Assembly (NCBI GenBank): GCA_016223045.1
Contig: JACRPT010000100.1
Coordinates: 1-60,955 of the forward strand
Length of the DNA stretch: 60,955 nt
Direction of reading: 5' to 3'
DNA from: Candidatus Eiseniibacteriota bacterium
GTDB taxonomy: Bacteria > Eisenbacteria > RBG-16-71-46
The position numbers and the translations under genes were made by a program. Positions 13,628 to 58,935 of the stretch are shown here, in pieces; positions within the stretch are counted from its first letter, which is position 1, and every line of letters begins with the position of its first letter. Below the pieces are notes generated by a model. It had not been told where the DNA came from. It did not search any database and worked only from the letters and a program-made list of their open reading frames with translations.

Positions 13628-13640
13628 TTCGCGCGTCCCT

Positions 13641-15747: not shown

Positions 15748-16128
15748 ACGGCCCCCTGGCTCGAGTGCTGGCGGATTCCACGGCTTGCCTTCGCAACACT
15801 CGTTCCCGGCAGCGCAACCGCCCGAGTCCTGTCGGGCGAGCCGGGATGTGGGTCCACGGGAAGGCGTTCCGGCCTCGCCGAATCCGCGCGCGGTGCCGCC
15901 GCGCAGTCGGCCGCCTTCCCGGGGCCCAGACTCATGGGAGCTTTTACCACAGGTGAGGGCGCGCGGTGAGGCGCTTTCTCCGCCAAAGGGCCGGCGCCGG
16001 GTCCCGGAGGCCCGCTCTCCCCGCACCGGCGGCCCTCGGCGCGCCGCGTCGGCAGCGCCACAGCCCGCGCGCCCCTGAGCGACCGGAGCACGCCCGCTGC
16101 ACCCCGGAGCGCGCCCGCGGTCAGCCCC
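15748..16128. other. Intergenic region upstream of the Omp85-NtrYX operon
   Basis: No gene. It contains a sigma-54-type element (15793-15807) and a perfect 7-bp hairpin (CGCCCGA and TCGGGCG, 15819-15838) just upstream of it, which could be an activator site or a stem. The remaining part up to 16128 is GC-rich sequence after the crotonase-fusion gene upstream, with no clear terminator. Confidence 0.5.
15793..15807 (-). promoter_or_regulatory. Sigma-54 (-24/-12) promoter candidate of the Omp85-NtrYX operon
   Basis: On the minus strand GGGAACG-AGTG-TTGC matches TGGCACG-N4-TTGC at nine of eleven fixed bases, with GG and GC exactly 10 nt apart. The predicted start near 15781 gives a 33-nt leader to the GTG at 15747. 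This would make the operon self-activating through its own NtrC-family protein. Confidence 0.6.
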
Positions 16129-18219: not shown

Positions 18220-18231
18220 GTTCCTCGCTCC

Positions 18232-19428
18232 TCAGGAGACCTTGAACAGGGCCGCGATCCCGACATCGCCGGCGGCGCAGCCGAAGATCAGCACGTAGCC
18301 GCCGCCCAGGTCGGTCGCCTCCTCCAGCGCTTCGATCAGCACGCGCGTGAGCGTCGGTCCCTGCGGGTGCCCCCAGACCAGGGGACAGCCCGTGTTGTTC
18401 ATCTTGCGCCAGTCGTAGCCCGTGATCTTCGTGAAGATGACGTCGTTCGCCGCGAACGGGTTGTGGTTCTTGACCACGGCCATGTCGTCCATGGCGAGGC
18501 CGGTCCGCTTCAGCAGCTCCTGCACCGCGAACGCCGGGGCCTCGGGCATCAGGCTGGGCTGCGTGCGGACCTCGGCCTTGCCGACGAACTGGATGTCCAC
18601 CTCGGGCCGCGGGCTGAGCGCGCGCGCCTTCTCCCTGCTCGTGACCAGCAGCGTCGCCATGCCGTCGGACGCGTGGGTCTGCGTGCCTCCGGTGACACAG
18701 GTGTCGAGCTCGCGCTGGGCCCTGAGGGCGCCGAGGGTGAGCCGGCGCACGCCCAGGTCGTCGTCCACGCGCCCGAGCGGCCGGCCCGCGACGTTCAGCA
18801 CGTCGAGCGGGACCAGCACGCGCGCCAGGAAGCCGGACTCCTTCGCCTCGAAGTAGCGCAGGTGGCGCAGGTACGCCACCTCGTCCACTTCCCGGCGGTC
18901 AACCTTGTACTTGCGCGAGGTGATGCCGGCGGCGGTGATCATCGCCCTGCCGGTGGCCGGGTCGAAGCCGAAGTTGTCCCACACGTCGGCGATCGCCATG
19001 GTGCGCTGATGCGCCCGGCGCTCCGGGAAGACGCCGACCGGTGAGTCGCTGGTCCGGTCGAAGGTCAGCACGCCGACCACGTCCTTGGAGCCGGACTGGA
19101 CCTCGGCGCCGCCGAGCAGCACGGCCTGGAGCCCGGTGGCGCAGGCCTGCTCGACGTGGTAGCCGGGGAGGCGATGCCCCATGCAGCTCGCCACCAGCGG
19201 CGCGGTCCAGAACTTCCAGTGCCAGGGGATGGTCGAGCCGATGACCAGGTACTCGAGCTCGCTCTTCGGGACCTTCCTGAGCCCCAGGATCCGCGCCATG
19301 GACTCGCCGGCGAACTGGCCGATGTTGACCTCCGCCAGCGCGCTGGTCTGCCAGGCCGGGAAGTAGCTGCTTCCCCAGGTGCCGTAGGGGATCCTGGCAT
19401 CCGGGAACATCTGCGGTGCCTTCTTCAT
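18232..19428 (-). CDS. Thiolase-family acyl-CoA acetyltransferase
   Basis: 398 residues, the normal thiolase length. The acyl-accepting Cys is in E-Q-A-C-A-T-G (near residue 98). The N-H-N-P-F-A motif near 325 replaces the more usual N-E-A-F-A. The C-terminal catalytic region reads F-G-C-A-A-G-D instead of C-x-G-G-G, so it is a divergent branch, possibly specialised for a bulky or aromatic-derived acyl chain. The start ATG 19428 has AAGGAG 7 nt upstream. It is followed after 12 nt by the dehydrogenase/crotonase fusion, which should make the 3-ketoacyl-CoA it cleaves. Confidence 0.82.
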   Translation of the reverse strand: MKKAPQMFPDARIPYGTWGSSYFPAWQTSALAEVNIGQFAGESMARILGLRKVPKSELEYLVIGSTIPWHWKFWTAPLVASCMGHRLPGYHVEQACATGLQAVLLGGAEVQSGSKDVVGVLTFDRTSDSPVGVFPERRAHQRTMAIADVWDNFGFDPATGRAMITAAGITSRKYKVDRREVDEVAYLRHLRYFEAKESGFLARVLVPLDVLNVAGRPLGRVDDDLGVRRLTLGALRAQRELDTCVTGGTQTHASDGMATLLVTSREKARALSPRPEVDIQFVGKAEVRTQPSLMPEAPAFAVQELLKRTGLAMDDMAVVKNHNPFAANDVIFTKITGYDWRKMNNTGCPLVWGHPQGPTLTRVLIEALEEATDLGGGYVLIFGCAAGDVGIAALFKVS

Positions 19429-45464: not shown

Positions 45465-45519
45465 TAGGATGTCCGCGGTTCCTCGCTCCTCCAGCATCTC
45501 CCCGACCGAAGGGCCACTC

Positions 45520-46941
45520 ATGCCTGGATTCTCCCCGCATCGGCGCGCGCGCGCCCTTCTGGTCGCGGCGCTGGCGTCCCTGGTCCTCTGTGGCGGCTGC
45601 GCGCGTCCCCGGAAGGCGACGCCCCCCGCAGCGATCTTCCTCATCGTCGTCGACACGCTCCGTCCCGACCACCTGTCCTGCTACGGCGGTGCCGGGCACC
45701 CGAGCCCCGCCATCGACCGGCTCGCCGCATCCGGCGTGCGCTTCGAGCGGGCGCAGTCCGTCTCCAGCTGGACCGTTCCCAGCATGGGCGCCATGCTGAC
45801 CTCGCGCTACCCGACGCAGCTCGGACTCATCGAGCAGCCGCCGGAGCAGGGCGTGCGCTTCGACTGGCGCGAGAAGCGCCGGCAGGTGCGCTACACGCTG
45901 CCCGGAGGCGTTCCCACGCTCGCCTCGCTGCTCGACGACGCCGGCTATCATCCTGCCGCCTTCGTCAACCAGCCGTTCATCAACGCCGGGGACGGGTTCC
46001 TCCACGGCTTCGCGGAATGGTGCTACACCACGGGCGAGCGGACCCTCGAGTGGCACGACTTCACCCGGCCGATGCCGACGATCAACTTCCCCGCGGGCAC
46101 CGATCTCGGGACCGCCGATTCCCTGCTGGTCGCCGAGTTCGCACGCTGGCTCGCTGCCAACGCGGACCGCCGGCCCTTCGTGTGGCTGCACCTGCTCACG
46201 CCCCACTGGCCCTATACACCGCCCGATCGTTACCTGCCCGGGCACGAGCCGCGCCCCACCGACCCCGAGCCCCTCTACTCGGCCGAGGTCCGTGAGGCGG
46301 ACGATCTGGTCGCGGCGGCGCTCGCTGCGATCGACGCCCGGGTCGGACTCGAGCGCTCGCTGGTGATCCTGACCTCCGACCACGGCGAGGAATTCCTCGA
46401 CCACGGCATGTACGAGCACGGGCACAGCCTCCATCGCGAGATCATCCACGTGCCGCTGATCCTGGCGGGGCCCTCCCTGCCCGCGGGCAAGACCGTGGGC
46501 GCCTGCGTGCGCACGGTGGACCTCCTGCCGACGATCCTCGCTCTGGCCGGCGCGGACGTACCGGGGCCTGCGGGGATCGGGGGCGTCAGCCTGCTGCCGT
46601 TCCTCCGCGGTCGGGCGAAGGACCTCCCGGTCTACTCGGAGGGCATGCTCTACGGCAGCACCAAGCGCAGCCTGATTGACCATGGCTACAAGCTCATGAT
46701 CGACGTGCAGACCACCCCGCCCTACCGGCTCTTCGACGTGTCCCGGGATCCCCTCGAGACCCTGGACCTGGCGCCGCAGCTCCCCGATCGCGTGGCGAGG
46801 ATGCGGCGGGCGCTCGCCGTGGAGCGGGCGCGCTTCGTCACCGACTACGCGGCGCTCGTCGGTCCGGGGGCCGTGAAGAACGATCCCGAGACCCAGCGGG
46901 TGCTGCGCGCGATGCGCGCACTCGGGTACGTGAGCGACTGA
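45520..46941 (+). CDS. Sulfatase-fold lipoprotein with Thr at the nucleophile position
   Basis: 473 residues. Signal peptide with lipobox ending at Cys27. The alkaline-phosphatase-superfamily domain has metal-binding V-V-D-T-L-R-P-D-H (Asp45, Asp50), the nucleophile region W-T-V-P-S-M (85-89), S-D-H-G-E-E-F-L-D-H-G and the G-H-S-L-H-R-E block. True sulfatases have C/S-x-P-S-R; here Thr takes the place of the modified Cys/Ser and Met that of Arg, so it is more likely a phosphatase, phosphotransferase or phosphodiesterase. It ends R-A-M-R-A-L-G-Y-V-S-D, the tail motif shared in this region. ATG 45520 (GAAGGG upstream) fits the lipoprotein signal. Confidence 0.82.
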   Translation: MPGFSPHRRARALLVAALASLVLCGGCARPRKATPPAAIFLIVVDTLRPDHLSCYGGAGHPSPAIDRLAASGVRFERAQSVSSWTVPSMGAMLTSRYPTQLGLIEQPPEQGVRFDWREKRRQVRYTLPGGVPTLASLLDDAGYHPAAFVNQPFINAGDGFLHGFAEWCYTTGERTLEWHDFTRPMPTINFPAGTDLGTADSLLVAEFARWLAANADRRPFVWLHLLTPHWPYTPPDRYLPGHEPRPTDPEPLYSAEVREADDLVAAALAAIDARVGLERSLVILTSDHGEEFLDHGMYEHGHSLHREIIHVPLILAGPSLPAGKTVGACVRTVDLLPTILALAGADVPGPAGIGGVSLLPFLRGRAKDLPVYSEGMLYGSTKRSLIDHGYKLMIDVQTTPPYRLFDVSRDPLETLDLAPQLPDRVARMRRALAVERARFVTDYAALVGPGAVKNDPETQRVLRAMRALGYVSD

Positions 46942-47060: not shown

Positions 47061-47882
47061 TCAGATCTCGACGCGCCAGAGGAACTTGGCCGCGAGCCCG
47101 CCGGCGAGCGACCAGAGGATGAACACGGCGAGCCAGTCGCCCTGCCACGCGAGCAGTGGATAGCGCGCCTTCGGGTAGCGGAGCGCGACGCGCGCGATCG
47201 GCCCGTCCGGGTCGAGCCGGGGCAGACCCGGGTGCACCAGCGGATCGAGACTCGAATCGCCGCGCCGGTCGCCGATGACGCCGGTCCCCGACCGGGTGGC
47301 GAGCTCGAAGTCGTAGCTCGTGGGTCCGGCGCGGAGGGCGAGCGTGTGGCGGCCCGCGCCGAGCGCGCGGATCCGCCAGCTGATCTCGCCGCTGGCCGGC
47401 GCGCGCACCGGCGGAGCATCGAGGACGATCCCATCGCCCGGCACCAGGGACACGGGGACGTTCGTCGCGTCCTCGCCCTCTCCCAGGGCGACCGTGACCA
47501 GCGTGGCCCCGGACACGCCCAGGGGCGCGTGGCTGAAGCGCGCGTCGAGCTGGACCACCACCACCAGGATCAGGGGAAGCAGCGCCAGCAGCGGCTTCAG
47601 GTTCACCCCGAGGTGCCCGATGCTGCTCCAGAGCGCCGCGGCGAACGCCTTCAGGAGCACCGCGAGGTCGTCCCGGTAGAGCCTCATCTCGAGGATGTGC
47701 GCCACGAAGACGTCGCGGGTGCGGCGGACGCGCGCCTGGTCGGACGTCGCCTTGAAGATCCACATCGCGACGACTCCGAACAGCAGCGAGATCACCGAGA
47801 GCGCCACCGCGCGGTTCCCGGCGAAGGGCGACATCAGCAGGTCGAACGCGCGGGTCATGACGGTCGCCAGGAACTCAGGCAT
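47061..47882 (-). CDS. Membrane protein, Oxa1/EMC3-like topology, last gene of the PAPS cluster
   Basis: 273 residues. A first membrane helix (about 25-45) is followed by a charged, coiled-coil-like cytoplasmic segment (S-D-Q-A-R-V-R-R-T-R-D to R-D-D-L-A-V-L-L-K, about 46-82) and a second helix (about 97-114). A soluble, beta-rich extracytoplasmic domain (about 118-245) and a C-terminal helix (about 247-267) complete it. The helix - cytoplasmic coiled coil - helix arrangement recalls Oxa1-superfamily proteins such as EMC3 and archaeal DUF106; the beta domain is extra. It starts 8 nt after the RHH-like gene, so it is cotranscribed. It could be the membrane base or insertase of the system. Resemblance only. 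Confidence 0.5.
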   Translation of the reverse strand: MPEFLATVMTRAFDLLMSPFAGNRAVALSVISLLFGVVAMWIFKATSDQARVRRTRDVFVAHILEMRLYRDDLAVLLKAFAAALWSSIGHLGVNLKPLLALLPLILVVVVQLDARFSHAPLGVSGATLVTVALGEGEDATNVPVSLVPGDGIVLDAPPVRAPASGEISWRIRALGAGRHTLALRAGPTSYDFELATRSGTGVIGDRRGDSSLDPLVHPGLPRLDPDGPIARVALRYPKARYPLLAWQGDWLAVFILWSLAGGLAAKFLWRVEI

Positions 47883-47890
47883 TCGATCGC

Positions 47891-48085
47891 CTACGAGATG
47901 TAGCCCAGGCCCGCAAGCCGCTTCTTGATCTCCTCGTCCGAGTCCCCTTCGCCCCCTCGCGCCAGCTCCCGCTCGAGGACGTGCACGACGAACTCATCGA
48001 CCGAAGAGTAGCCCGCCCGCCCGGCCGCCGCCTTCAGGCGCTCCAGGAGCTCGGGTTCCAGTTTGATGGATCTCTTTCGAAACAT
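47891..48085 (-). CDS. 64-residue ribbon-helix-helix-like protein with the LGYI tail
   Basis: The core R-S-I-K-L-E-P-E-L-L-E-R-L-K, then A-G-Y-S-S-V-D-E-F-V-V-H-V-L-E, follows the strand-helix-helix pattern of Arc/CopG proteins, which dimerise through the strand. The last 15 residues (D-E-E-I-K-K-R-L-A-G-L-G-Y-I-S) match the tails of the APS-kinase-like protein and both sulfatase-fold lipoproteins nearby. A strong AGGAGGAGGGG precedes ATG 48085. It lies 11 nt after one phosphodiesterase gene and 8 nt before the membrane-protein gene. It could be a DNA-binding regulator, but the tail suggests a small adaptor that dimerises and docks to a partner. Confidence 0.75.
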   Translation of the reverse strand: MFRKRSIKLEPELLERLKAAAGRAGYSSVDEFVVHVLERELARGGEGDSDEEIKKRLAGLGYIS

Positions 48086-48096
48086 CGCCCCTCCTC

Positions 48097-50043
48097 CTAC
48101 CGGGTGAACAGGACCCGTCCGCTCATCCGCGCCGGCTTCGCGATCCCGTAGAGATCGAGAATCGTCACCGGCAGGTCGAGCAGCGTCGGGTCGGCCACCG
48201 CAATCGGACGGTTCGCCAGCAGCACCCCGGGCACCAGGGTGTGGTCCATGCAATGGTCGCCGCTCCACTTCGCGAGGTTCGGCGTCAGCCACGACGGCGT
48301 GAACGACCCCAGGGCGGACTCGTCGCTTCCGCGGTAGCCGCGATTGTAGCCGACGATCAGGTCCGGAGCCGCCGCGACCTCGGGTCCGTGGTAGACGTCC
48401 CGCGCCCGGTAGACGCGGGTCACGACCTGCTCTCCGGTCTCGGGATCCCGCAACGCGAGGAGCTTCCGCGAGAGGTCGTCGAGAAGCCCGTCGTATTCGG
48501 CCGACGGCCTCACGATGCCCTTCTTCTCCCGCCCCAGCAGGTTGACGTAGAGCCCGTTCAGGCCGAGAGCGTACGCCCGCGTGCGCCGCCAGAGCACGTC
48601 GCGCAGGAGCGGGTGCCGCTCCTTCTCCCCCGGCCGCTCGAGCACCAGGTAGCCCTGCTCGTAGAGCCAGGTGTTGAGGTGGAACTTCTTGTGGTAGGGC
48701 GCGAAGCCGTGATCCGACATCACGATCAGCGTGGCATCGCCCGGGATGCGGCCCCTGACCACGCCGAGCAGGCTGTCCATCCGGACGTAGAGATCCTGGT
48801 AGCGCTCCCCGAACGCCAGGTCGCGCGCGTGCGCCGGATGCCGGTCATCGAAGTTGCGCCACAGCATGTGGCCGGACTGGTCCAGCGTGGACACGTAGAA
48901 GAAGAGGAAGCCGTTCCGGTAGTCCGCGAGCGCCGTGTCGAGCATGCGCCAGCCTTCGGCCAGGACGGTGTCGGTCTGGGCCACGTACGCCGTGTCGTCG
49001 AGCACCCCGGCCTCGAACGCCTTGGTGTCCTCGGGCATCCCCTGCGTGTAGAAGTAGCCGATGCGGTCGAACAGCTCGCGCGAGAAGCCCGGCGGGGTCG
49101 AGATGGGAAGCGCCGGATGCTCGGGATCGAGGTTGATCGGCGAGACGTAGAGCCGGAACGTGGGACGCACCGACCGCAGGTAGAAGCGGCAGATGCCGGA
49201 GAGCCGCTTGAACCTGCCGGCGAGGTCGAACTTCACCGGCACCCAGTCGCTCCACTGGCCGGTCGCGAGCAGGCGGACCTCGTCGCCGACGGTGATGCGC
49301 GCTGTGCCGTGCCCGGCGTCGAGATCGACCGTGAACGGCCGCTTCAGCTCCGGGCGCCCCCGGCGCAACGTGTTCTCGGGACCGATCAGCTCCGCCCGAA
49401 CCCGCCCGTCCACGACGCGGACGCGGTGCAGCGCCCCGCCGGGCACCTCCGCGCCGGGGCCGAGGTCGGCGTCGGTGTAGAAGGAGAACGTGCCGTAGCT
49501 CCCGAGGAGATCGGGGACCCCCATGCCGGCGAGCGTACGGCCCCGGCTCGGGGCGGGCGGGAAGTTCGCGGGGATGCGGAGGACCTCGCAGGGGACGTGG
49601 TGGCGGTCGAGGACCTGCCAGAAGGCCTCGCCCTTCCGCTGAAGCTCGGCCTTCCCGCCGGAGAGCGGGATCGCCCAGTCGCCGAGCGTCAGCGTGCGGC
49701 CGGGCTCGGTGACGCGCGCGGCGGAGAACACCGGCAGGTAGGTGGCCGGATCCCGGTGGATGAAGTCGAAGATGCCGTGACCTCCCGGGTCCATCCCGGT
49801 AATGAAGCACGACCACGCGACCGGGCTCTGCGGGGGGATGCTCGTCCCCAGCCGGGAATACGAGCCGCTCTTCATGAGCGCCTCGAAGTGCGGCATCACG
49901 CCGCGGGCGACGAAGCGCTCGAGGAGCTGAGGATCCATCCCGTCGATGCCGAGCACGACCACCGGCCGGTGCGTGGCCGCCCGCGGAGCGCAGCCGCAGC
50001 TCAGTGCCAGCGCGAGCGCCGCGGCGATCCGGCAGACCTTCAT
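48097..50043 (-). CDS. Alkaline-phosphatase-superfamily phosphodiesterase-like lipoprotein (AP1)
   Basis: 648 residues. A signal peptide with lipobox (Cys near 16-18) places it outside the inner membrane. Superfamily residues are in place: Asp34 in G-I-D-G-M-D, candidate nucleophile Ser73 in Q-S-P-V-A-W-S, T-L-D-Q-S-G-H-M, S-D-H-G-F and a last His in G-D-H-C-M-D. An insertion rich in beta strands (about 120-300) is shared with its upstream neighbour. The pattern is that of NPP-type enzymes acting on phosphate diesters or similar esters. The ATG overlaps the AP2 stop by 4 nt. Substrate unknown; the PAPS genes in the operon suggest a sulfated or nucleotide-linked molecule. Confidence 0.82.
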   Translation of the reverse strand: MKVCRIAAALALALSCGCAPRAATHRPVVVLGIDGMDPQLLERFVARGVMPHFEALMKSGSYSRLGTSIPPQSPVAWSCFITGMDPGGHGIFDFIHRDPATYLPVFSAARVTEPGRTLTLGDWAIPLSGGKAELQRKGEAFWQVLDRHHVPCEVLRIPANFPPAPSRGRTLAGMGVPDLLGSYGTFSFYTDADLGPGAEVPGGALHRVRVVDGRVRAELIGPENTLRRGRPELKRPFTVDLDAGHGTARITVGDEVRLLATGQWSDWVPVKFDLAGRFKRLSGICRFYLRSVRPTFRLYVSPINLDPEHPALPISTPPGFSRELFDRIGYFYTQGMPEDTKAFEAGVLDDTAYVAQTDTVLAEGWRMLDTALADYRNGFLFFYVSTLDQSGHMLWRNFDDRHPAHARDLAFGERYQDLYVRMDSLLGVVRGRIPGDATLIVMSDHGFAPYHKKFHLNTWLYEQGYLVLERPGEKERHPLLRDVLWRRTRAYALGLNGLYVNLLGREKKGIVRPSAEYDGLLDDLSRKLLALRDPETGEQVVTRVYRARDVYHGPEVAAAPDLIVGYNRGYRGSDESALGSFTPSWLTPNLAKWSGDHCMDHTLVPGVLLANRPIAVADPTLLDLPVTILDLYGIAKPARMSGRVLFTR

Positions 50044-52115
50044 ACGATGCTCCGCCCCATCATGTGCCGCGGGGGCTCCACGCCCAGGAGCGTGAGCGCC
50101 GTCGGGGCCAGGTCCATGAGCCGCGGCCGCTCCGCGACCGCCTCGAGGTTGGTGAAGAGCACGCCGGGCACGATCTCGGGGTCCATGCAATGATCGCCGC
50201 TCCAGGGCTTGACGTTGTCCTCGAACACCCGTGGACCGATCACGCCCTTCGCGCAGTCCCACGACGCGCGATAGCCTTCCGCGCAGAGCGCGATCAGGTC
50301 CGGCCCGTCTTCCACGTAGGGTCCCCGGAACGCCTCCCGGACATCCACCACGCGCCGCACCGCGATCGTGCCGTCCTCGTCGCGCAGGCCTTCCAGGCCA
50401 CGCACGATGCGCCGTCCGACCTCGCCGGCCTGCGCGGGCTCCACCGTCCCGCAGCGCTCGCGTCCCTTGAGGTTGAGGTAGATGCCGCCCAGACCGATGG
50501 CGTAGGCCTGGGTGCGATCCCAGTCCACGCCCGCCAGGTACTCGCCGGAGCCCCCTCCCTCCTTCAGCTTCATGAATCCGTTCGCCACCAGCCAGGTGTT
50601 GAGATTCACGCCCCGCCGGAAGCTCTTGAATCCGTGATCCGACATCACCATGAAGGCGGTGTCCCGGTCCACGTACTTCATGGTCTCCCCGACCAGCACG
50701 TCCATCTTCCGGTAGAGGTCGGGGATCGCGTCGCCGTGCGGGCTCGGAGGCTTCCCGCGGTTGGCCGGATGATCCGCGACGAGATGGCGGAAGAACATGT
50801 GCTGCAGGCGATCGGTGATGTCGAACACGCACACCGCCATCCCGCGGTGCAGCCGGTCCAGCGAGTGGAACCACATCGCCCTGCGCTCCTCGTGGAACGC
50901 GTACGCCTGGTCCAGCCACCCCTGCTCGTCGAGCACGCCCTCGTTCATCGCCCAGGTGTCCTCCGCCAGGCCGAGCGTCGCGTGCGGACCGAGCAGCTTG
51001 GCCAGGTGGATGGAGAAGAACGGCGGATGGGAGATCGGCATCGCCGGCCTCTCCGGGTCGATGTGGATCGGGGTCATGTACAGGCCGACCTGGTCGCCGA
51101 GGGCCGTGAGCCTGAACCGCACGATGCCGCGCAGCGTGACCCCGGGGGCGGCGCGGAAGCCCAGCCGCACCCAGGGCGTGTACTCTCCCTCACGCAGCAG
51201 GTGAGACGCGCCGCCGACCGCCAGCTCGACCTCGCGGCGGTCGCGGACCACGCGGAGGGTGAGCGGGAGCGTGAGCGGTTCCTTCGAGAACGGGCTCGCC
51301 GGCCCCGGGATCGCGGTGGCGATGAGGCCGTTCCGCTCCTCGACCTGGACGACCAGGCCGCCGACGCGCGCGGCCTCGTCCGGCGACGTGGTGAAGTAGG
51401 TGAAGGAGCCCTGCGACCCGCGCAGGTCCGGCACGCACATGCCCGCCACCATCACGCCGTCGAACTTCTCGACGGGGAACGTGATCGGCACGCGCAGCAC
51501 CGAGGCGAACACGCCGTGCTCGCTCAGGATCTTCCAGAAGGACTTGCTCTTCCGCAGCATGCGCACCCCGGCTCCCCCGCGCGGGATGCGCAGCGGGCCG
51601 AGGCGGAGGAAGCGCTGCTCGCCGTGCACCTCGCTCGAGGAGAGCTTCGGCAGGTACGAACGCCGGTCGCGGGCGAGGAAGTCCCAGATCGCGTGCCCCG
51701 AGCTGTCCACGCCGGTCGCGAACGTGGACCACGCGACCGGCGAGAGCGCCGGCAGCGACGTTCCCAGCCGGCGATAGCTGCCGGTGTCGCGCAGCCGCCG
51801 CAGATTCGGCAGCTCGCCGTCCGCCATCATGCGCTCGGTGATCGTGGGCTCGAGCCCGTCCAGCCCCAGCAGGATGACCTTCCTGACCTTCGCCCGCCGG
51901 CGCGTGCGCCGGTGGATCGCGCCACGCAGCAGCGCACGGATCGGGAAGGTGAGCAGGGCGAGGAAGGCGGCGAGGAAGGCGATCACCAGGGTGAGGAAGG
52001 ACGAGATCAGCGCGAAGCCGGCCCCGGGTCCGATGTAGGCGTGGGCCGCGGCCGGCGCCGCGAGGACGCCGAGCGCGGCGGCGAGGACGGGCCGGCCGGC
52101 CCTACGGCAGGACAT
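50040..52115 (-). CDS. Membrane-anchored alkaline-phosphatase-superfamily protein (AP2)
   Basis: 691 residues. Its N-terminus carries a signal-like helix (8-26), an A-Y-I-G-P-G-A-G motif and a membrane helix (about 33-58). A very basic segment (60-79) then leads into the catalytic domain, which by the positive-inside rule would be cytoplasmic. Active-site pieces are intact: Asp86 in G-L-D-G-L-E, Ser125 in L-S-P-V-A-W-S, I-T-D-R-L-Q-H-M, S-D-H-G-F and G-D-H-C-M-D. It is the closest relative of AP1 here, suggesting duplication followed by a change of location. ATG 52115 lies inside the AP3 gene end (14-nt overlap) and has GGAG 5 nt upstream. Confidence 0.82.
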   Translation of the reverse strand: MSCRRAGRPVLAAALGVLAAPAAAHAYIGPGAGFALISSFLTLVIAFLAAFLALLTFPIRALLRGAIHRRTRRRAKVRKVILLGLDGLEPTITERMMADGELPNLRRLRDTGSYRRLGTSLPALSPVAWSTFATGVDSSGHAIWDFLARDRRSYLPKLSSSEVHGEQRFLRLGPLRIPRGGAGVRMLRKSKSFWKILSEHGVFASVLRVPITFPVEKFDGVMVAGMCVPDLRGSQGSFTYFTTSPDEAARVGGLVVQVEERNGLIATAIPGPASPFSKEPLTLPLTLRVVRDRREVELAVGGASHLLREGEYTPWVRLGFRAAPGVTLRGIVRFRLTALGDQVGLYMTPIHIDPERPAMPISHPPFFSIHLAKLLGPHATLGLAEDTWAMNEGVLDEQGWLDQAYAFHEERRAMWFHSLDRLHRGMAVCVFDITDRLQHMFFRHLVADHPANRGKPPSPHGDAIPDLYRKMDVLVGETMKYVDRDTAFMVMSDHGFKSFRRGVNLNTWLVANGFMKLKEGGGSGEYLAGVDWDRTQAYAIGLGGIYLNLKGRERCGTVEPAQAGEVGRRIVRGLEGLRDEDGTIAVRRVVDVREAFRGPYVEDGPDLIALCAEGYRASWDCAKGVIGPRVFEDNVKPWSGDHCMDPEIVPGVLFTNLEAVAERPRLMDLAPTALTLLGVEPPRHMMGRSIV

Positions 52116-53424
52116 CGAGGCTCCGGAGCACCATGCGGGATGCCGCTTCCAGGTGGAAGTCGTCACTCGCGGACTCGAGCAGATCCCGGCGGCGGGTGAG
52201 GAAGAACGCGTCGTCCCAGGTGTGCATGCCCTGGAGCTGTCGCGGGCCGATGAACGAATCCGCCCCGATCCGGCCCTTGAGATCGTAGCCGCGGTGCGGG
52301 ACGACGAGCAGATCCGGGCCGAGATCGGCCTGCGGGCCGCGGTAGATCTCCGCGGCATCGAAGACGCTGCGGACCACCGGCGCGCCCTCGTGACGGAGCG
52401 CGCCGATGAACTCCGTGAGCTCCCGCTTGAGCGCCGCCACCTCGCCCTCGCCGACCGAGCCCTTCGGGTAGCGGCCACGGCGATGAAGGTACACGCGCGC
52501 CGGATCGAGCACGAACGCCCGCGTCCGCTCCGAGACGCCCTCGAGCGAATCGGCGGCCGGATCCTCGAGCGTCAGATAGCCGGCCTCGGCCAGGGCCCGG
52601 TTGAGAAACGCCTGCTTCCGGGCGCCGCAGAAACCGTGATCCGAGAGCACGAAGAAGTTCCGCTCCTCACCCGTCTCCGAGAACCGCTCGAACACCTCGC
52701 CGATGAAGGCATCGATCGCCCGGTAGTAGTCGAGGAAGTCCCGGTGGTGGGGATGACCCTCGTCCTCGCAGGCGTCCCACAGGAAGTGGTGCAGGCGATC
52801 GGTGCCGGTGATGACCACTTCCATCAGGTTCCAGCGTTCCTTCTCCCACAGCTCGTCCAGCATCCGGCGCCGCAGCTCGAGCAGTCGCGCCAGCTCGCGG
52901 AAGAGCGCGGGGGGATCGTCGCGGACCTGGCGCGCGTCGAGGTCGACCTGATAGCCCATGTCCAGCGCCGCCTGCAGGTGGTGTGCGGGGTAGACCGACT
53001 TCTCGAGTCGGACCGCCACGAAGCCCGAGACCAGGGCGCCCGGGATCGGCCGCGCCGGGTAGGTGGCCGGCTGATTGAGGACCACGCTTCGCATCTCCCG
53101 CTTCCCGAGAAGGTCCCAGATGGTCTCGGCCTTCACGTCGAGGAAGCTCGGGAACCGGGTTCTGTAGGTGCCCGGGACCAGATCGGTGAAGCCGAAGATC
53201 CCGTGCTCGCCGGGATTGCGGCCGGTCATGAACGTGGTCCAGCTCACCGACGAGATCTCGGGCAGCGAGGCCACCATCGGCGTGAGCGTCGCGTCGCGGG
53301 CGATCTCGGCCAGCCGCGGCATCACGCCGGCCTGGAGGAACCGCCCGAGCATCGAGTGGGGCACGCCGTCGAGGCCGATGACGCAGGCCTTCCTCGGCGA
53401 TCGCGACGAGTCCTTCAACGCCAC
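52102..53424 (-). CDS. Soluble alkaline-phosphatase-superfamily protein (AP3)
   Basis: 440 residues with no signal peptide or membrane helix, so cytoplasmic. Active-site elements are Asp19 in I-G-L-D-G-V, Ser58 in I-S-S-V-S-W-T-T-F-M-T-G, the metal pair in T-G-T-D-R-L-H-H-F-L-W, L-S-D-H-G-F and a late His in G-M-H-T-W-D-D. It lacks the large beta insertion of AP1 and AP2. It resembles type I phosphodiesterase/nucleotide pyrophosphatase proteins and, being in the same compartment as the PAPS synthase, could act on APS, PAPS, PAP or a lipid-linked product. The start is GTG 53424 with GAGGG upstream, 15 nt after the APS-kinase-like gene. Confidence 0.8.
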   Translation of the reverse strand: MALKDSSRSPRKACVIGLDGVPHSMLGRFLQAGVMPRLAEIARDATLTPMVASLPEISSVSWTTFMTGRNPGEHGIFGFTDLVPGTYRTRFPSFLDVKAETIWDLLGKREMRSVVLNQPATYPARPIPGALVSGFVAVRLEKSVYPAHHLQAALDMGYQVDLDARQVRDDPPALFRELARLLELRRRMLDELWEKERWNLMEVVITGTDRLHHFLWDACEDEGHPHHRDFLDYYRAIDAFIGEVFERFSETGEERNFFVLSDHGFCGARKQAFLNRALAEAGYLTLEDPAADSLEGVSERTRAFVLDPARVYLHRRGRYPKGSVGEGEVAALKRELTEFIGALRHEGAPVVRSVFDAAEIYRGPQADLGPDLLVVPHRGYDLKGRIGADSFIGPRQLQGMHTWDDAFFLTRRRDLLESASDDFHLEAASRMVLRSLDVLP

Positions 53425-53439
53425 CGTGCCCTCACGCGC

Positions 53440-53988
53440 TCAGATGTAGCCCAGATCGCGCAGGCGGGCCTTGATGGCTTCTTCCTCTTCCGCCAGGTAG
53501 CCGCCGCCGCCGATCCCCGGGACGTGCCCGAGCGCTTCCAGCAGCGAGACGATCGCCCGCACCGCCCCATCCTCGCCTCCCTCTCCCGCCACGCTCACGA
53601 CGTGCGTTCGCTCCGATTCCGGGCCGCTGCCCGGCGCGTCCGCCGTTCCGGCCGTGGCCTCGGCGGACCCGCGGAGCTCAACCTCCACCAGGCGTTCGAT
53701 CGCCGCCCGCAGCTCGTCGCGCAGCGGCGCGGGCGCCAGTGGCTCGGCCGCGATCGCGGCCACCCCGTTCCGCGACAGCAGGCGGCAGACGAAGCCGACG
53801 CGGCGGGCGCAGGCGGCACGAGCCTCCGCGGGATCGCCGGGACCGGCCCCCAGGCGCTCCCGCACCTCGTCGCCGCCCACGAACTCGACCGCCATCCCGC
53901 GCTCGAGCAGGGCCTCCTCGACCCGGCGCGCGACGCTCGCCGCGAGGGCCGGCGAGGGACCCGTCAGCCAGAGGGTGAACCCCCTCAT
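53440..53988 (-). CDS. APS-kinase-like protein without a P-loop, with the LGYI tail
   Basis: 182 residues. It follows the APS kinase fold closely: G-F-T-L-W-L-T-G start, G-G-D-E-V-R-E-R-L after the second strand, A-R-R-V-G-F-V-C-R-L-L-S-R-N-G-V, then a P-L-R-D-E-L-R segment. Each aligns with the kinase domain of the ATP sulfurylase/APS kinase two genes upstream. The Walker A is destroyed: G-P-S-P-A-L-A-A-S replaces G-L-S-G-S-G-K-S-T, so no Lys or Ser/Thr remains to hold ATP. It is probably not a kinase but a regulatory or docking relative. The C-terminus E-E-A-I-K-A-R-L-R-D-L-G-Y-I carries the shared tail. ATG 53988 has GGGAGG upstream. Confidence 0.8.
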   Translation of the reverse strand: MRGFTLWLTGPSPALAASVARRVEEALLERGMAVEFVGGDEVRERLGAGPGDPAEARAACARRVGFVCRLLSRNGVAAIAAEPLAPAPLRDELRAAIERLVEVELRGSAEATAGTADAPGSGPESERTHVVSVAGEGGEDGAVRAIVSLLEALGHVPGIGGGGYLAEEEEAIKARLRDLGYI

Positions 53989-54013
53989 CGTACGAGCCTC
54001 CCGCCGGCCGGCA

Positions 54014-55393
54014 TCAGAGGACCTTGCCGATCATCTCGCCGGGCGTGGCGATCCCGAAGTAGTCGAGGATCGACGGGGCGACGTCGTAGATGGATACCCG
54101 GTCCGCAGCGCCGGCGGCCGGCTTGCCGCGCCCCTGCCAGATGAAGATCCCCTCCTGCGAGTGGTTGGCGTCGTCGGGGCCGGTGTCGTTCTCGAAGACG
54201 TGGATCTGGCGCCCGCCGACCATGCCGGCGCTGCGCCAGTCCAGGTTCCCGAGATAGACGATCATGTCGGGCGGCGTGCCGTTGCTCGCGCGATACACCT
54301 CTTCGGGAAGGAAGACCCGGGTGCCGATGTTCCGGCCCGCCTCGTCGGTGAGGTTCTCGAGCTCCGACTTGAGGTCGCGCTTGAACGCCGCCAGCTCGCC
54401 GGCGGGGATCCGCCCGTCGGGCTCGCGCCCCTCGACGTTGAGGAAGATGCGGGCGTAGTAGCCGCCTTCGCTCCACACCCGGGTGCGGCTCCAGTCGATC
54501 ATGTCCGCCTTCAGCCGCGTCGGCCCCTCGGGATACCGCTTGAGCGTGAGCAGGCCCCGGGCGATCAGCCACTCGTTGATGCAGACTGCTCCGTGCATCG
54601 CCTGCGCGCCGTGGTCGGAGACCACGATGACCGAGACGTCCTTCGGGAGCTCCTGCAGCACGCGGCCGACCTGGCCGTCCAGATGGACGTAGTAGCGGTG
54701 GATCACGTCCTCGAATTCGTTGCCCGGCCGGTAGAGCCGATGCGCCGGATCGGCGTAGCGCCAGAAGGCGTGATGGAGCCGGTCCGGACCCATCTCCACC
54801 ATCATCGCGAAGTCCCAGTCCTCGAGCGAGAGGAGTCTGCGGAAGGCCTGGAATCGCGCGTTCGTCATGCGGTAGATCTGGTCGAGGGTCTCGCGCTTGC
54901 GCTCGTTGCGGAAGTCCCTGACATCGATGATGTACTCGCCGCCGGCCCAATCGTCCAGCCGCGACGCCAGCTCCGGCGGAGAGGTCCAGACCACGTCCTT
55001 GCCGGGAGTGAGGAAGTCGCAGACCATCACGCCGCGCAGCGGCCGTGGCGGATAGGTCAGCGGCACGCCCATGACGATCGAGCGCAGGCGGTTCCTCGAC
55101 AGATGGTTCCACACCGTCTTCGCCTTCACGTGGGTCGCGTTCACGGTGAAGGTGTCCTCGTAGCCGTGCGAAGCCCGGTTGCGGAATCCGTAGATCCCGA
55201 GCATGCCGGGATCCTGGGAGGTCATCATCGCCATCCAGGCCGGGACGGTGATCGGCGGGATGGTGGAGACCAGGTTGCCGTGGATCCCCCCGTCCATCAG
55301 GCCGCGCAGGTGGGGCATCTCGGCGAGCCACGGCCCGAACAGGAACTGGGGCGTGAGGCAGTCGAGACCGATGATGCACAGCCGCTTCGACAC
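54014..55393 (-). CDS. Soluble alkaline-phosphatase-superfamily protein (AP4)
   Basis: 459 residues without signal or membrane helix. Active-site pieces are Asp11 in I-G-L-D-C-L-T, Thr49 in P-I-T-V-P-A-W as nucleophile candidate (the other three have Ser), M-G-P-D-R-L-H-H-A-F-W, V-S-D-H-G-A-Q and A-N-H-S-Q-E-G. It is the second gene of the operon, 11 nt after the PAPS synthase gene, with AGGAG before its GTG start (55393). A much longer open frame upstream is antisense-type shadow. The Thr suggests chemistry closer to nucleotide phosphodiesterases, perhaps cleaving or transferring from APS or PAPS. This is inference from context. Confidence 0.8.
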   Translation of the reverse strand: MSKRLCIIGLDCLTPQFLFGPWLAEMPHLRGLMDGGIHGNLVSTIPPITVPAWMAMMTSQDPGMLGIYGFRNRASHGYEDTFTVNATHVKAKTVWNHLSRNRLRSIVMGVPLTYPPRPLRGVMVCDFLTPGKDVVWTSPPELASRLDDWAGGEYIIDVRDFRNERKRETLDQIYRMTNARFQAFRRLLSLEDWDFAMMVEMGPDRLHHAFWRYADPAHRLYRPGNEFEDVIHRYYVHLDGQVGRVLQELPKDVSVIVVSDHGAQAMHGAVCINEWLIARGLLTLKRYPEGPTRLKADMIDWSRTRVWSEGGYYARIFLNVEGREPDGRIPAGELAAFKRDLKSELENLTDEAGRNIGTRVFLPEEVYRASNGTPPDMIVYLGNLDWRSAGMVGGRQIHVFENDTGPDDANHSQEGIFIWQGRGKPAAGAADRVSIYDVAPSILDYFGIATPGEMIGKVL

Positions 55394-55404
55394 CGGGCCT
55401 CTCC

Positions 55405-57135
55405 TCAGCTCCCGCTGTTGCCGCCGATGTAGCCGAGCCGCTCGAGGTGAAGCAGGATCTGATTGGCGGCCTCGTCCGGCGTGGTGGCGGTCGTGTCGAT
55501 GCGCACGTCCGCGTCCGCCGGCTCCTCGTAGGGATCGCTGATCCCGGTGAACTCCTTGACGATCCCCTGGCGGGCCTTGGCGTAGAGGCCCTTGCGATCC
55601 CGCGCCTCGCACACCTCGAGCGGCGTGGCGACGTGCACCAGCACGAAGCCCCCGAGCGGCTGGATCATCGCCCGCACCCGCCTGCGCGTGTGGTCGTAGG
55701 GAGCGATCGGGGCGCAGATGGCGATCCCGCCGTTCTTGGTGACCTCCGAGGCCACGAACCCGATCCGCTGGATGTTGAGGTCGCGATGCTCCCTGGAGAA
55801 GCCCAGCTCGGAAGACAGGTGCTTGCGCACGATGTCGCCGTCGAGCAGCGTGACCGGCCGTCCGCCCATCATCAGCAGCTTGACCAGGAGCGCGTTCGCC
55901 ACCGTGGACTTCCCCGACCCGGAAAGACCGGTGAAGAAGACGGTGAAGCCCTGCATCGCCCGCGGCGGATGGGTGCGCCGCAGCTCGCGCGCCACCTCGG
56001 GATAGGTGAACCACTCGGGGATCTCCCGGCCCTCCGCCAGGCGTTCCCGCAACTCGGTGCCCGAGATCGAGAGCGCCCGGGTCCCCTCCGGGACCTGGTC
56101 CTCCGGCACGTAGGCGTCGAGCTCCTGCACGTAGACCATCATCTTGAACGGCACCATGCGCACGCCCAGCTCCTTCTGGTGCCGGGAGAGCAGCTCCTGG
56201 GCCTCGTAGGGACCGTAGAAGGGGCGGCCCGCGGAGTCGTTGCCGGGACCCGCATGATCGCGGCCGACGATGAGGTGCGTGCAGCCGTAGTTCATGCGGA
56301 TGATGCCGTGCCACACCGTCTCGCGGGGCCCGCCCATCCGCATCGCCAGGGGCAGGAGCGCCAGGAACGCGGTGAACCTGGGGTAGCGCCCGAGGATCGC
56401 CTGGTAGCCGCGCACCCGGGTGTAGTGGTCCACGTCTCCCGGTTTGGTCATCCCGACCACCGGGTGGATCAGGAGATTCGCCTGCACGTCCTTGGCCGCC
56501 CGCAGCGTCAGCTCGAGGTGGGCGCGGTGCATGGGATTGCGGGTCTGGAAGGCCGCGATCCGCGTCCAGCCCAGCCGCGAGAACTCGCGGCGGGTCTCGG
56601 CGGGAGTGAGGCGCAGCCCCTTGAAATCGTAGTGCACGGGCAGTTGCAGCCCCTCCACCTCGCCACCGACGTACCAGGAGTGCGTGTGGTTCAGCAGGTA
56701 TTCGACGCCCGGGTGCTCCGGCCGGCGGGCGCCGAACACCTGCTCGGCCTCCAGCTCGCGATCCGGCTTCCAGACGTCCCCGACGCGCAGCGCCGCCAGC
56801 ATCACGCCCTCGGCGTCGCGCAGGGCCAGGGTCGAGCCGGGCTCGAGCCGGCGCGCCACTTCCTCGGTCACATCGAGGGTGACGGGGATCGGCCAGAGCG
56901 TGCCGCTCGCGAGCCGCATCTCGTCGCGCACCCGCTCGTAGTCGGAGCGACCCAGGAAGCCGCGCAGCGGCGAGAAGCCGCCGTTCATCAGCAGTTCCAG
57001 GTCGCAGAGCTGCCGTCCGGTCAGGTCCCACGACACCCATTCGCGGGAGTGGCTCTTCAGCTCCGCCGCTCGGGCCTCGTCCGCCAGCAGGTCGACCAGC
57101 TGGCCGCCGTGGGGTCGTATCAGGTGTTCGGGCAC
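55405..57135 (-). CDS. Bifunctional sulfate adenylyltransferase / adenylylsulfate kinase
   Basis: 576 residues. Makes APS from ATP and sulfate, then PAPS from APS and ATP. The N-terminal PUA-like and ATP sulfurylase domains (about 1-385) carry Q-T-R-N-P-M-H at 197-203 and G-R-D-H-A-G-P-G at 291-298. The C-terminal APS kinase (about 394-576) has an intact P-loop G-L-S-G-S-G-K-S-T at 403-411 and D-G-D-I-V-R. It ends L-L-H-L-E-R-L-G-Y-I-G-G plus four residues. GTG 57135 has GGAGGAG 8 nt upstream. As first gene of an eight-gene operon without reductase genes, it probably supplies PAPS for modification and not for sulfate assimilation. Confidence 0.95.
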   Translation of the reverse strand: MPEHLIRPHGGQLVDLLADEARAAELKSHSREWVSWDLTGRQLCDLELLMNGGFSPLRGFLGRSDYERVRDEMRLASGTLWPIPVTLDVTEEVARRLEPGSTLALRDAEGVMLAALRVGDVWKPDRELEAEQVFGARRPEHPGVEYLLNHTHSWYVGGEVEGLQLPVHYDFKGLRLTPAETRREFSRLGWTRIAAFQTRNPMHRAHLELTLRAAKDVQANLLIHPVVGMTKPGDVDHYTRVRGYQAILGRYPRFTAFLALLPLAMRMGGPRETVWHGIIRMNYGCTHLIVGRDHAGPGNDSAGRPFYGPYEAQELLSRHQKELGVRMVPFKMMVYVQELDAYVPEDQVPEGTRALSISGTELRERLAEGREIPEWFTYPEVARELRRTHPPRAMQGFTVFFTGLSGSGKSTVANALLVKLLMMGGRPVTLLDGDIVRKHLSSELGFSREHRDLNIQRIGFVASEVTKNGGIAICAPIAPYDHTRRRVRAMIQPLGGFVLVHVATPLEVCEARDRKGLYAKARQGIVKEFTGISDPYEEPADADVRIDTTATTPDEAANQILLHLERLGYIGGNSGS

Positions 57136-57207: not shown

Positions 57208-57220
57208 CGGATAGTGACTA
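57208..57220. promoter_or_regulatory. Palindromic operator candidate GATAGT-G-ACTATC
   Basis: A perfect 6-1-6 palindrome in a locally AT-rich patch, 73 bp upstream of the PAPS synthase start and 246 bp upstream of the divergent sulfatase-fold gene. A sigma-70-like box pair could not be fixed nearby. The rest of the 330-bp gap (57136-57465) shows no gene. Confidence 0.4.
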
Positions 57221-57465
57221 TCACACTCGCGCGACCGAGTCTACGCCCGGCCGGAGGTCCCGCTCCACCCCGATTTCGCCCGGCCGGGGTGCGGGGGCAG
57301 CCCTGCCCCGCCTGCACCCACGCCGCGCCTGCGTCCGCGACGCGCTCCCGCTCGCCGGCCGCGCGGCGCCGCCGGCGAGCGAACCCCCGGCGCGCACTCG
57401 AGCCGCCGGTCGCCCGGCTCGAAGCGACGCGCGACGCCGCTCCAGCGAAGCTGCTAGCCTAGGGC

Positions 57466-58935
57466 ATGGCCTCGATCTCCCGGCACCCCACTGCGCCGCG
57501 GCGCGCGCTCGCGGGCCGCACGCTCGCGGCGTGGCTCGCGGCCGCGCTCGCCGCGGTCTGCCTGATCCTCGGCATTCCCTCCTGCGCGAGACGAAACGGC
57601 GCGCGGCCCCGCCACGTGATCCTCATCTCCCTGGACACGGCGCGCGCCGACCACTTCGGATTCCTCGGGAATCCCGCGGTCCGCACGCCGCGGCTCGATG
57701 CGATCGCCCGGGAATCGATCGTATTCGAGGACTGCATGACCGCGGCGCCCTCGACGCTGGCCTCCCACACCTCGCTGTTCACGGGCAAGTACCCGCACCA
57801 TCACGGGGTGCCCCGCAACGGCTTCATGGTCAACCGCGAGAACCAGATGCTCCCGGAGATCCTGAAGCAGGCGGGCTTCCGCACCGCGGGGTTCGCCGGC
57901 TCGTTCTCGCTCGACAGCCGCTTCGATTTCGCGCAGGGATTCGACCACTACGACGAGGAGTACGACGTCTTCGTGGGCGAGGGGGGCGCGGACCAGAATC
58001 AGCGCCCGGCGGAGGCGGTGAACGCAGCGGTGAAGCGCTACCTCGACCAGACCGGGGTTCCGGACCATCTGTTCCTGTTCGTGCACTACTTCGATCCACA
58101 CCAGCCCTACGCGGCGCCGGCGCCGTTCGACACGCTCTACGACCCGGCCGGCAGGAAGGGACTGCCGACCATGCGCGAGCTGAAGAAGAGCCCGGCGCTG
58201 ACGGCGGAGGCCCGCGAGGGCTTCGCGCGGCGTTTCGAGATGCAGTATGCATCCGAGATCACGTACCTGGACCATCATCTCGGACGCCTGCTGGACGACC
58301 TGCGCGAGCGCGGCATCCTCGAAGACGCGCTGCTGGTGATCACCAGCGATCACGGCGAGAACCTGTGGGACCATCCCGCGCAGTTCGACCACGGCCACAC
58401 GGTGTATCAGAGCACGATGCGCGCCGTGTGCGTGATGCGCCTGCCGCGCGGCGAGTCGGGCGGGACGCGGCGGAAGCAGCTCATCTCGAACGTGGATGTC
58501 CTGCCGACGCTGCTCGGAGAGCTGGGGCTCGACCCGCCCCGGGGGATCGATGGCGAGCGCGTCAGACTCCGCGAACCCGAGGCGCCGCTCGCGAGCCGAA
58601 CCCGCTTCGGACAGGCGACCAAGCCGTGGCAGGAGGTCGAGACCGACCCCCGCTGGACCAACCTGCGCAAGTCCCGGTGCGTGTGCCAGGGGCGGTTCAA
58701 GCTCATCCAGACGCCCTGGCTCGGGACCGAGGAGCTGTACGATCTCGGGTCCGACCCCGACGAACGGACGGACCTCCTCAAGGACCCGTCTCCCCGGGTG
58801 GCAGCGCTTGCCGCCAGCCTGAGACGGAAACTCGAGCACTGGGCGGCATCCGCGAAGCCGTTGCCGTCGCGATTCGAGCCGGCGCAGCAGGAAGAGACGA
58901 TCAGGAGACTGAAGAGCCTCGGCTACATCAACTGA
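57466..58935 (+). CDS. Sulfatase-fold exported protein with Thr at the nucleophile position and the LGYI tail
   Basis: 489 residues. A hydrophobic N-terminus (about 17-38) ends in G-I-P-S-C, a weak lipobox. Metal residues are in S-L-D-T-A-R-A-D-H (Asp57, Asp62), T-S-D-H-G-E-N-L and D-H-G-H-T. The nucleophile region reads S-T-L-A-S-H-T-S-L-F-T-G with Thr97 where sulfatases have the modified Cys, Ala99 for Pro and His101 for Arg, so sulfatase activity is doubtful. It ends E-E-T-I-R-R-L-K-S-L-G-Y-I-N, the shared tail. It diverges from the PAPS operon. The ATG follows a -10-like TAGCCT by 5 nt with no ribosome binding site, so it may be leaderless. Confidence 0.82.
   Translation: MASISRHPTAPRRALAGRTLAAWLAAALAAVCLILGIPSCARRNGARPRHVILISLDTARADHFGFLGNPAVRTPRLDAIARESIVFEDCMTAAPSTLASHTSLFTGKYPHHHGVPRNGFMVNRENQMLPEILKQAGFRTAGFAGSFSLDSRFDFAQGFDHYDEEYDVFVGEGGADQNQRPAEAVNAAVKRYLDQTGVPDHLFLFVHYFDPHQPYAAPAPFDTLYDPAGRKGLPTMRELKKSPALTAEAREGFARRFEMQYASEITYLDHHLGRLLDDLRERGILEDALLVITSDHGENLWDHPAQFDHGHTVYQSTMRAVCVMRLPRGESGGTRRKQLISNVDVLPTLLGELGLDPPRGIDGERVRLREPEAPLASRTRFGQATKPWQEVETDPRWTNLRKSRCVCQGRFKLIQTPWLGTEELYDLGSDPDERTDLLKDPSPRVAALAASLRRKLEHWAASAKPLPSRFEPAQQEETIRRLKSLGYIN

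Follow-up and report, generated by a model that had tools for sequence, protein, structure and literature searches.

A PAPS-synthesis operon with four alkaline-phosphatase-superfamily proteins in a Candidatus Eiseniibacteriota genome

What becomes of activated sulfate in a bacterium whose genes for making it share an operon with a series of alkaline-phosphatase-like (AP) proteins? The question is raised by eight genes of a Candidatus Eiseniibacteriota bacterium (assembly GCA_016223045.1, contig JACRPT010000100.1), which we analyzed within a stretch of 60,955 nucleotides, referred to as the window. ATP sulfurylase (Sat) and adenosine 5'-phosphosulfate (APS) kinase (CysC) are known at the family level to convert sulfate and ATP to 3'-phosphoadenosine 5'-phosphosulfate (PAPS); with them the PAPS route of sulfate assimilation begins, and PAPS is the donor for sulfation. 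We found that the gene set is real, that it recurs in distant genomes, and that in most of them it is tied to sulfate activation.

The coordinates confirm the operon of the initial annotation: all eight genes lie on the minus strand, from 57135 down to 47061, with gaps of 8-25 nt and overlaps of 14 and 4 nt. A Sat-CysC fusion (55405..57135) is followed after 11 nt by AP1 (54014..55393, GTG start), after 25 nt by a CysC-like protein (53440..53988), and after 15 nt by AP2 (52102..53424). AP3 (50040..52115, ATG start) overlaps AP2 by 14 nt and AP4 (48097..50043) overlaps AP3 by 4 nt; the operon closes with RHH, a ribbon-helix-helix-like protein of 64 amino acids (47891..48085, after an 11-nt gap), and the membrane protein MP (47061..47882, after an 8-nt gap). 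All four AP proteins match PF01663 (Phosphodiest) in Pfam, with E-values from 1.9e-40 to 1.4e-28, so that the annotation's count of four AP-superfamily proteins stands for the operon itself; it has to be extended by two further proteins, SulfA and SulfB, which match PF00884 in Pfam and flank the operon on the opposite strand.

The first gene product is a full-length match to the bifunctional Sat-CysC family NF004040 (PRK05537), at 922 bits against an NCBIfam cut-off of 669. It carries the Pfam domains PUA_2, ATP-sulfurylase and APS_kinase, with the kinase domain intact, and has a tail-like end, HLERLGYIGGNSGS. It departs from that family in its surroundings, because four AP genes and a CysC relic come next instead of a reductase gene.

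Recurrence and the link to sulfate activation

A profile of MP matched 7 of 59 genomes, including its own, and none of the 19 other genomes from that family, which makes the distribution of the operon patchy among close relatives; within the phylum, 6 of 47 genomes have MP, again counting its own. In a wider, non-random sample the profile matched 38 of 385 genomes. We fetched the neighborhoods of the other 37 and used the window for the genome in question. AP4, RHH and MP stand in this order on one strand in 32 of the 38 neighborhoods, and by this recurrence the arrangement is more than chance. The six exceptions are a contig that ends after RHH (L012), an AP4 on the other side of MP (L016), a neighborhood in which no AP4 was found (L053), an MP accompanied by CysD, CysN and AP2 (L067), and two loci where MP precedes RHH (L075 and L077). 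A second module, Sat-AP1-CysC-AP2, lies upstream of this core, or elsewhere, in many genomes; Sat together with CysC or a CysC relic shares the neighborhood in 12 of the 38, and CysD-CysN does so in one more. The initial annotation had staked its reading on the gene order being kept in some other genome, and both the core and the module recur. No description of the operon was found among the literature matches listed.

Co-occurrence across whole genomes points the same way. APS kinase (E <1e-20) was present in 34 of the 38 genomes with MP and in 14 of 42 without it (Fisher 2.4e-7); restricting the comparison to genomes of 2 Mb or larger left 33 of 37 versus 13 of 30 (p 1.3e-4). The controls were picked by handle number rather than at random. 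As the genomes do not represent independent samples, both p values should be taken as indicative. The core is, moreover, linked to ATP sulfurylases of two unrelated kinds, Sat and CysD-CysN, the latter in L067, where the order is MP-CysD-CysN-AP2. The AP1 profile matched 44 of the 385 genomes at E 1e-60, with 30 loci listed, a search that is largely circular: 16 of the 30 are members of the profile itself, chosen near MP or CysC, and 2 more were already known. Among the 12 new loci, some of them cut by contig ends, Sat or CysC lies within 1.5 kb of AP1 in 6 (L194, L197, L205, L206, L207 and L208).

Gene content also bears on which enzymes might use the PAPS. The genome of the window (G000), which is 97.58% complete, has no match to PAPS_reduct (PF01507), Sulfotransfer_3 (PF13469) or Sulfotransfer_1 (PF00685), and the same three families are missing from 11 of the 34 MP genomes that have APS kinase (G000, G021, G042, G044, G086, G149, G150, G232, G256, G318 and G364). 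Sulfotransfer_2 and Sulfotransfer_4 (PF03567, PF17784) were not found in those 11 genomes either, a weak result, as the controls matched nowhere; other sulfotransferase families were not searched. Classical PAPS sulfotransferases of these four families would use the same donor as the system considered here, but their fold differs, and none was detected in the genome of the window (the PF03567 and PF17784 searches being without a positive control).

One account of the linkage would be that ordinary genes of assimilatory sulfate reduction happen to adjoin unrelated phosphatases. Sat and CysC do begin that route, and a strong PF01507 match occurs in 10 of the 38 MP genomes, compared with 14 of 42 controls, in a family that includes CysD. 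The lack of a PF01507 candidate in the genome of the window and the conservation of gene order in distant genomes both argue against this account, which we regard as very improbable.

A shared C-terminal tail

CysC, RHH and neighboring AP proteins have a C-terminal tail in common, with a consensus of approximately EExIKxRLxxLGY[IL]. Leaving out Sat-CysC fusions and CysC matches below 90 bits (L017, L075 and L077), the tail is present on all 25 CysC proteins with an AP gene within 3 kb and on 2 of 26 without one (Fisher 1.5e-12). One of these two, in L131, is cut by a contig end. The other, in L151 (5906-6601), adjoins genes that by eye resemble polysaccharide biosynthesis genes, and no AP gene was found in 13 kb. 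Where CysC adjoins AP1 in the loci listed (22 cases), the tail is present in 20, one copy is truncated where the locus ends, and one is tailless; among new loci with a complete CysC beside AP1 (L197, L206, L207 and L208), three of four have it. Tail-bearing CysC proteins or relics occur in 26 of the 38 MP genomes and in 2 of the 42 controls.

All 36 strong and 8 weak matches to the RHH profile end in the tail, which in the window is DEEIKKRLAGLGYIS (47894..47938, minus strand); the RHH, CysC and SulfAB profiles were built from tail-bearing proteins and may favor such proteins. By comparison, the motif ends only 1 of 2010 other open reading frames (ORFs) of at least 100 amino acids, many of which are not genes. 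That one is the CysD of L067, and CysD proteins naturally end in a similar peptide. A DNA pattern for the tail gave 22 matches in the genome of the window, against 5 for the reversed control, and it fixes codons, misses RHH and may miss other tails too. Four of the matches fall within 13 amino acids of a stop codon, and all four belong to proteins of this cluster (SulfA, SulfB, Sat-CysC and the CysC relic).

The third gene of the operon gives a further view of the tail. Its description as APS-kinase-like in the initial annotation holds insofar as it has a partial match to APS_kinase (PF01583), above the Pfam cut-off, but needs correcting in one respect: the P-loop has been lost, with GPSPALAAS at that place, as has the FTGxxDPYE segment, so the protein is a degenerate APS kinase. 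Even so it keeps its tail, AEEEEAIKARLRDLGYI (53443..53493, minus strand), as do the P-loop-less relics of L075 and L077, which suggests that the tail has a function apart from kinase activity.

Alternatively, the tail might bind nothing and simply terminate the AP/sulfatase fold as a structural element, having reached CysC and RHH through fusion; this view is compatible with any account of the enzymes. Eight of 11 matches to the SulfAB profile end in the tail, as this view would have it, though the profile comes from tail-bearing proteins. It accounts less readily for a tail on proteins of two other folds, for its retention by degenerate kinases, or for the restriction of the four C-terminal pattern matches to this cluster, and we consider it quite unlikely. 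An AlphaFold2 (AF2) model of SulfB from two sequences had a mean confidence (pLDDT) of 42.6, too poor for placing the tail, and alignments of two solved sulfatase relatives stop short of it.

The AP proteins and a possible use of PAPS

The AP proteins keep what we take to be the metal site and nucleophile of the AP fold, as the initial annotation had noted. In alignments of 17 members for AP1, 17 for AP2, 20 for AP3 and 20 for AP4, the conserved positions are D11, T49, D204, H208, D260, H261 and H411 in AP1 (T49, D260 and H261 in at least 90%, the others invariant); D19, S58, D209, H213, D262, H263 and H401 in AP2; D86, S125, D435, H439, D493, H494 and H642 in AP3; and D34, S73, D388, H392, D444, H445 and H597 in AP4. 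The N-termini differ, also in agreement with that annotation. The listed members of AP1 and AP2 start without a leader. AP3 has a signal-like stretch, a transmembrane (TM) segment with the motif YIGPGAG and a linker rich in lysine and arginine, with 6-10 such residues in the 20 preceding the core among the 27 AP3 proteins listed; a TM segment comes before this linker in all of them except that of L077, whose ORF begins too far downstream. From the positive-inside rule, the enzyme domain of AP3 is predicted to face the cytosol. AP4 leaders are, by eye, of lipoprotein, Sec-like or Tat-like type, that of the window being lipoprotein-like, and the protein is predicted to be exported. In the AP4 of L048 (12101-14290), an LGYV motif follows the lipobox and precedes the core, close to the N-terminus.

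PF01663 is the family of type I phosphodiesterases and nucleotide pyrophosphatases (NPPs), and AP1-AP4 resemble the NPPs in their Pfam matches and catalytic positions. They differ in having Ser at the nucleophile position in AP2-AP4 (Thr in AP1), in the length of AP3 and AP4, which are about 200 residues longer, and in operon context. The likeness invites the explanation that the AP proteins are NPP-type hydrolases of sulfur nucleotides or by-products (pyrophosphate, 3'-phosphoadenosine 5'-phosphate (PAP), APS or PAPS) that pull or regulate sulfate activation, while other enzymes use the sulfo group. The solved relatives of AP1 and AP4 at the profile level are NPPs and phosphonoacetate hydrolase, and AP1 lies between Sat and CysC in the conserved order. 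Four paralogues, distributed over both membrane faces, are nevertheless a large number for clearing by-products, the predicted export of AP4 would separate it from PAPS, and no PAPS user was detected in the genome of the window or ten others among the families tested (Sulfotransfer_2 and _4 lacking a positive control). On balance this explanation seems unlikely, although it has to be taken seriously.

The flanking genes bear on another explanation. SulfA (45469..46941, plus strand, with a lipoprotein-like leader and the tail RVLRAMRALGYVSD at 46897-46938) and SulfB (57466..58935, plus strand, with the tail EETIRRLKSLGYIN at 58891-58932) have Thr at what we take, from its motif, to be the formylglycine position; formylglycine sulfatases have Cys or Ser there, and neither protein qualifies as one. 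Both are weakly similar to phosphoethanolamine transferases and lipoteichoic acid synthase, with scores well under the cut-offs. The AP proteins could act on envelope lipids, to which they would transfer phosphoryl or alkylphosphate groups or from which they would remove them, in the manner of EptA or LtaS, with Sat-CysC merely co-regulated; the 12 of 38 MP genomes without a tail-bearing CysC agree with this. Transferases like EptA and LtaS act outside, however, whereas AP1 and AP2 are leaderless; CysD-CysN adjoins MP and AP2 in L067, and CysC and the core RHH have the tail in common. We judge this explanation about as unlikely as hydrolysis of sulfur nucleotides.

The reading that we prefer, with a probability of about 0.42, is that the AP-fold enzymes are sulfotransferases that use PAPS and are organized by the tail. 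Sat and CysC would make PAPS from sulfate and ATP, and it would be used by the AP-fold enzymes rather than by a reductase or a classical sulfotransferase. According to their predicted topology, AP1 and AP2 are cytosolic, AP3 is anchored with its domain on the cytosolic side and AP4 is exported. A sulfo-enzyme would form on the conserved Thr or Ser, and an acceptor at the membrane or beyond it would receive the sulfo group. As a short docking element, the tail that CysC, RHH and some AP proteins carry would keep the PAPS-making enzyme and the regulator on their AP partners, and MP, an Oxa1/EMC3-type protein, would insert or scaffold the membrane part. We infer the sulfo transfer itself, its donor and acceptor, the docking and the role of MP. 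An envelope molecule as acceptor is a guess. Pfam families in the flanks (up to five neighbors per locus, 30 loci, 118 proteins, of which 97 from 24 loci were scanned) gave no candidate for it, as none of the 139 families occurred in more than 4 of the 97 proteins. A fuller version, in which PAPS is handed by the portable tail to AP1 and AP2, AP3 at the inner face passes the group to AP4 outside on an Oxa1/EMC3-type platform, the tail-bearing RHH senses the occupancy of docking sites, and kinase relics reduced to their tail serve as adaptors, is decidedly unlikely as a whole.

There is a precedent for sulfotransferases of this superfamily. In Halobacterium salinarum, Agl30 and Agl31 (VNG1056C and VNG1057C) are alkaline-phosphatase-like, one membrane-bound and one soluble; on the basis of deletion and of expression in Haloferax, Zaretsky et al. 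2025 (PMC11980604) assigned them the role of N-glycan sulfotransferases. The operon shares with them an AP-superfamily core, here PF01663, and membrane-bound and soluble members in one gene cluster. On the other hand, the available text of that paper describes a haloarchaeal glycosylation cluster, names sulfatase relatives rather than PF01663, and mentions neither a Sat-CysC operon nor a tail, an RHH or a protein of Oxa1 type; the comparison is one of descriptions, not of sequences. The interpretation in the initial annotation thus finds partial support: a tie between the AP genes and sulfate activation is strengthened by co-occurrence (34 of 38 versus 14 of 42), the tail shared with CysC, the CysD-CysN of L067, the genome's lack of a detected PAPS reductase or Sulfotransfer_1/_3, and this precedent, as far as its available text goes; the envelope acceptor is still conjecture.

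Several observations weigh against sulfotransferase activity fed by PAPS and organized by the tail. Apart from the MP genomes without a tail-bearing CysC and the NPP-like solved relatives of AP1 and AP4, 4 of the 38 MP genomes have no real APS kinase. One of them, G274, the genome of L067, has no match at all, so that CysD-CysN there would yield APS instead of PAPS. APS may then be the donor, or the core may serve a different purpose. Six of the 12 new AP1 loci (L198, L200, L201, L202, L209 and L210) lack both Sat and CysC at distances up to 1.5 kb, so AP1 is not confined to their vicinity. Sulfotransfer_3 occurs in 20 of the 38 MP genomes (13 of the 42 controls) and Sulfotransfer_1 in 18 of 38 (MP genomes only), and in those genomes classical enzymes could use PAPS; the PF01507 matches given above tell in the same direction. 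As for the tail, the CysC of L206 adjoins AP1 yet lacks it, L075 and L077 share one genus, so that the relics represent at most two losses, and the predicted locations of tail-bearing proteins include both faces of the membrane, which a single docking site would have to explain. In the haloarchaeal study, basal sulfation persists in the Agl30/Agl31 double mutant, the authors found no role for a third AP-like protein, and the terms PAPS, phosphoadeno- and adenosine are absent from the main text.

The membrane protein, neighboring genes and implications

MP has TM segments predicted at 25-43, 92-110 and 250-268. Its family profile matches archaeal MJ0480 (PDB 5c8j_I) at E 1.2e-8 over profile positions 7-120, and 9 of 34 members match EMC3_TMCO1 at E up to 1 (best 2e-5), while the window protein alone has no match in Pfam. 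By profile similarity and its core of TM1, loop and TM2, MP belongs to the Oxa1/EMC3 superfamily (Oxa1/YidC/EMC3/TMCO1/DUF106). It is unlike other members in its fixed place in an operon and in some 130 residues between TM2 and TM3 with predicted beta strands. The pLDDT of this added domain is about 72-83 over residues 131-190, in an AF2 model from one sequence whose overall value, 57.8, is of low confidence; Foldseek with that model found weak matches to beta domains only (best E 7.2e-4, TM 0.20).

RHH scores 17.4 bits against Pfam RHH_1, under the cut-off of 20.5, and its sequence pattern is conserved in six aligned sequences including that of the window. A second small RHH-like, tail-bearing protein stands directly before Sat in L049, L052, L053, L054, L060, L129 and L138. 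An inverted repeat of 13 bp, GATAGT-C-ACTATC, lies at 57210-57222, in the space from which Sat-CysC and SulfB diverge. A/T-rich in a G+C-rich genome, it is a possible RHH operator. On the other side of the operon, a tetratricopeptide repeat (TPR) protein of 896 amino acids (42508-45198, plus strand) precedes SulfA, and its HELTH motif, seen by eye, suggests a metalloprotease.

Related loci vary in composition. L016 has an AP3-MP-AP4 cluster, with no Sat or CysC in the 20 kb read, beside an ATP-binding cassette (ABC) transporter of sulfate-/molybdate-like type (14913-18251; SBP_bac_11, BPD_transp_1 and ATPase, with CysA_C_terminal below cut-off). In L150 (1-9800), from a genome without an MP match, Sat, AP1, CysC, AP2 and diverged AP-like genes form one run. 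A single protein of L011 (92-2383), directly before Sat, has an AP domain together with TPR repeats, a LEALGYI motif in its interior and a weak match to SPFH, and a BsobI-type restriction endonuclease (12848-13828; PF09194, 452 bits) lies just past the operon there.

One scan of genome contigs for bacterial relatives gave a single short contig (L018). Searching plasmids found distant, mostly haloarchaeal, AP proteins, and on two haloarchaeal plasmids distant AP4 relatives lie among glycosyltransferase genes in both regions viewed. One of the plasmid loci (L179, Halopiger xanaduensis plasmid 29317-60633) is a glycan cluster with several sulfatase-like and AP-family genes and one gene of the PAPS-reductase family. 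Two other settings for the operon were rejected: none of its 8 proteins matches PADLOC models of anti-phage defense at E 0.001, and no relative of MP or AP4 was confirmed in viral contigs.

Bacterial sulfation is usually sought through classical sulfotransferase folds. If the sulfotransferase reading were true in a good part of the genomes with the MP core, some bacterial sulfation would be hidden under the names phosphodiesterase and sulfatase. The tail, retained even by degenerate kinases, offers a simple handle for tests of substrate channelling, and MP adds an operon-bound branch to the Oxa1/EMC3 superfamily.

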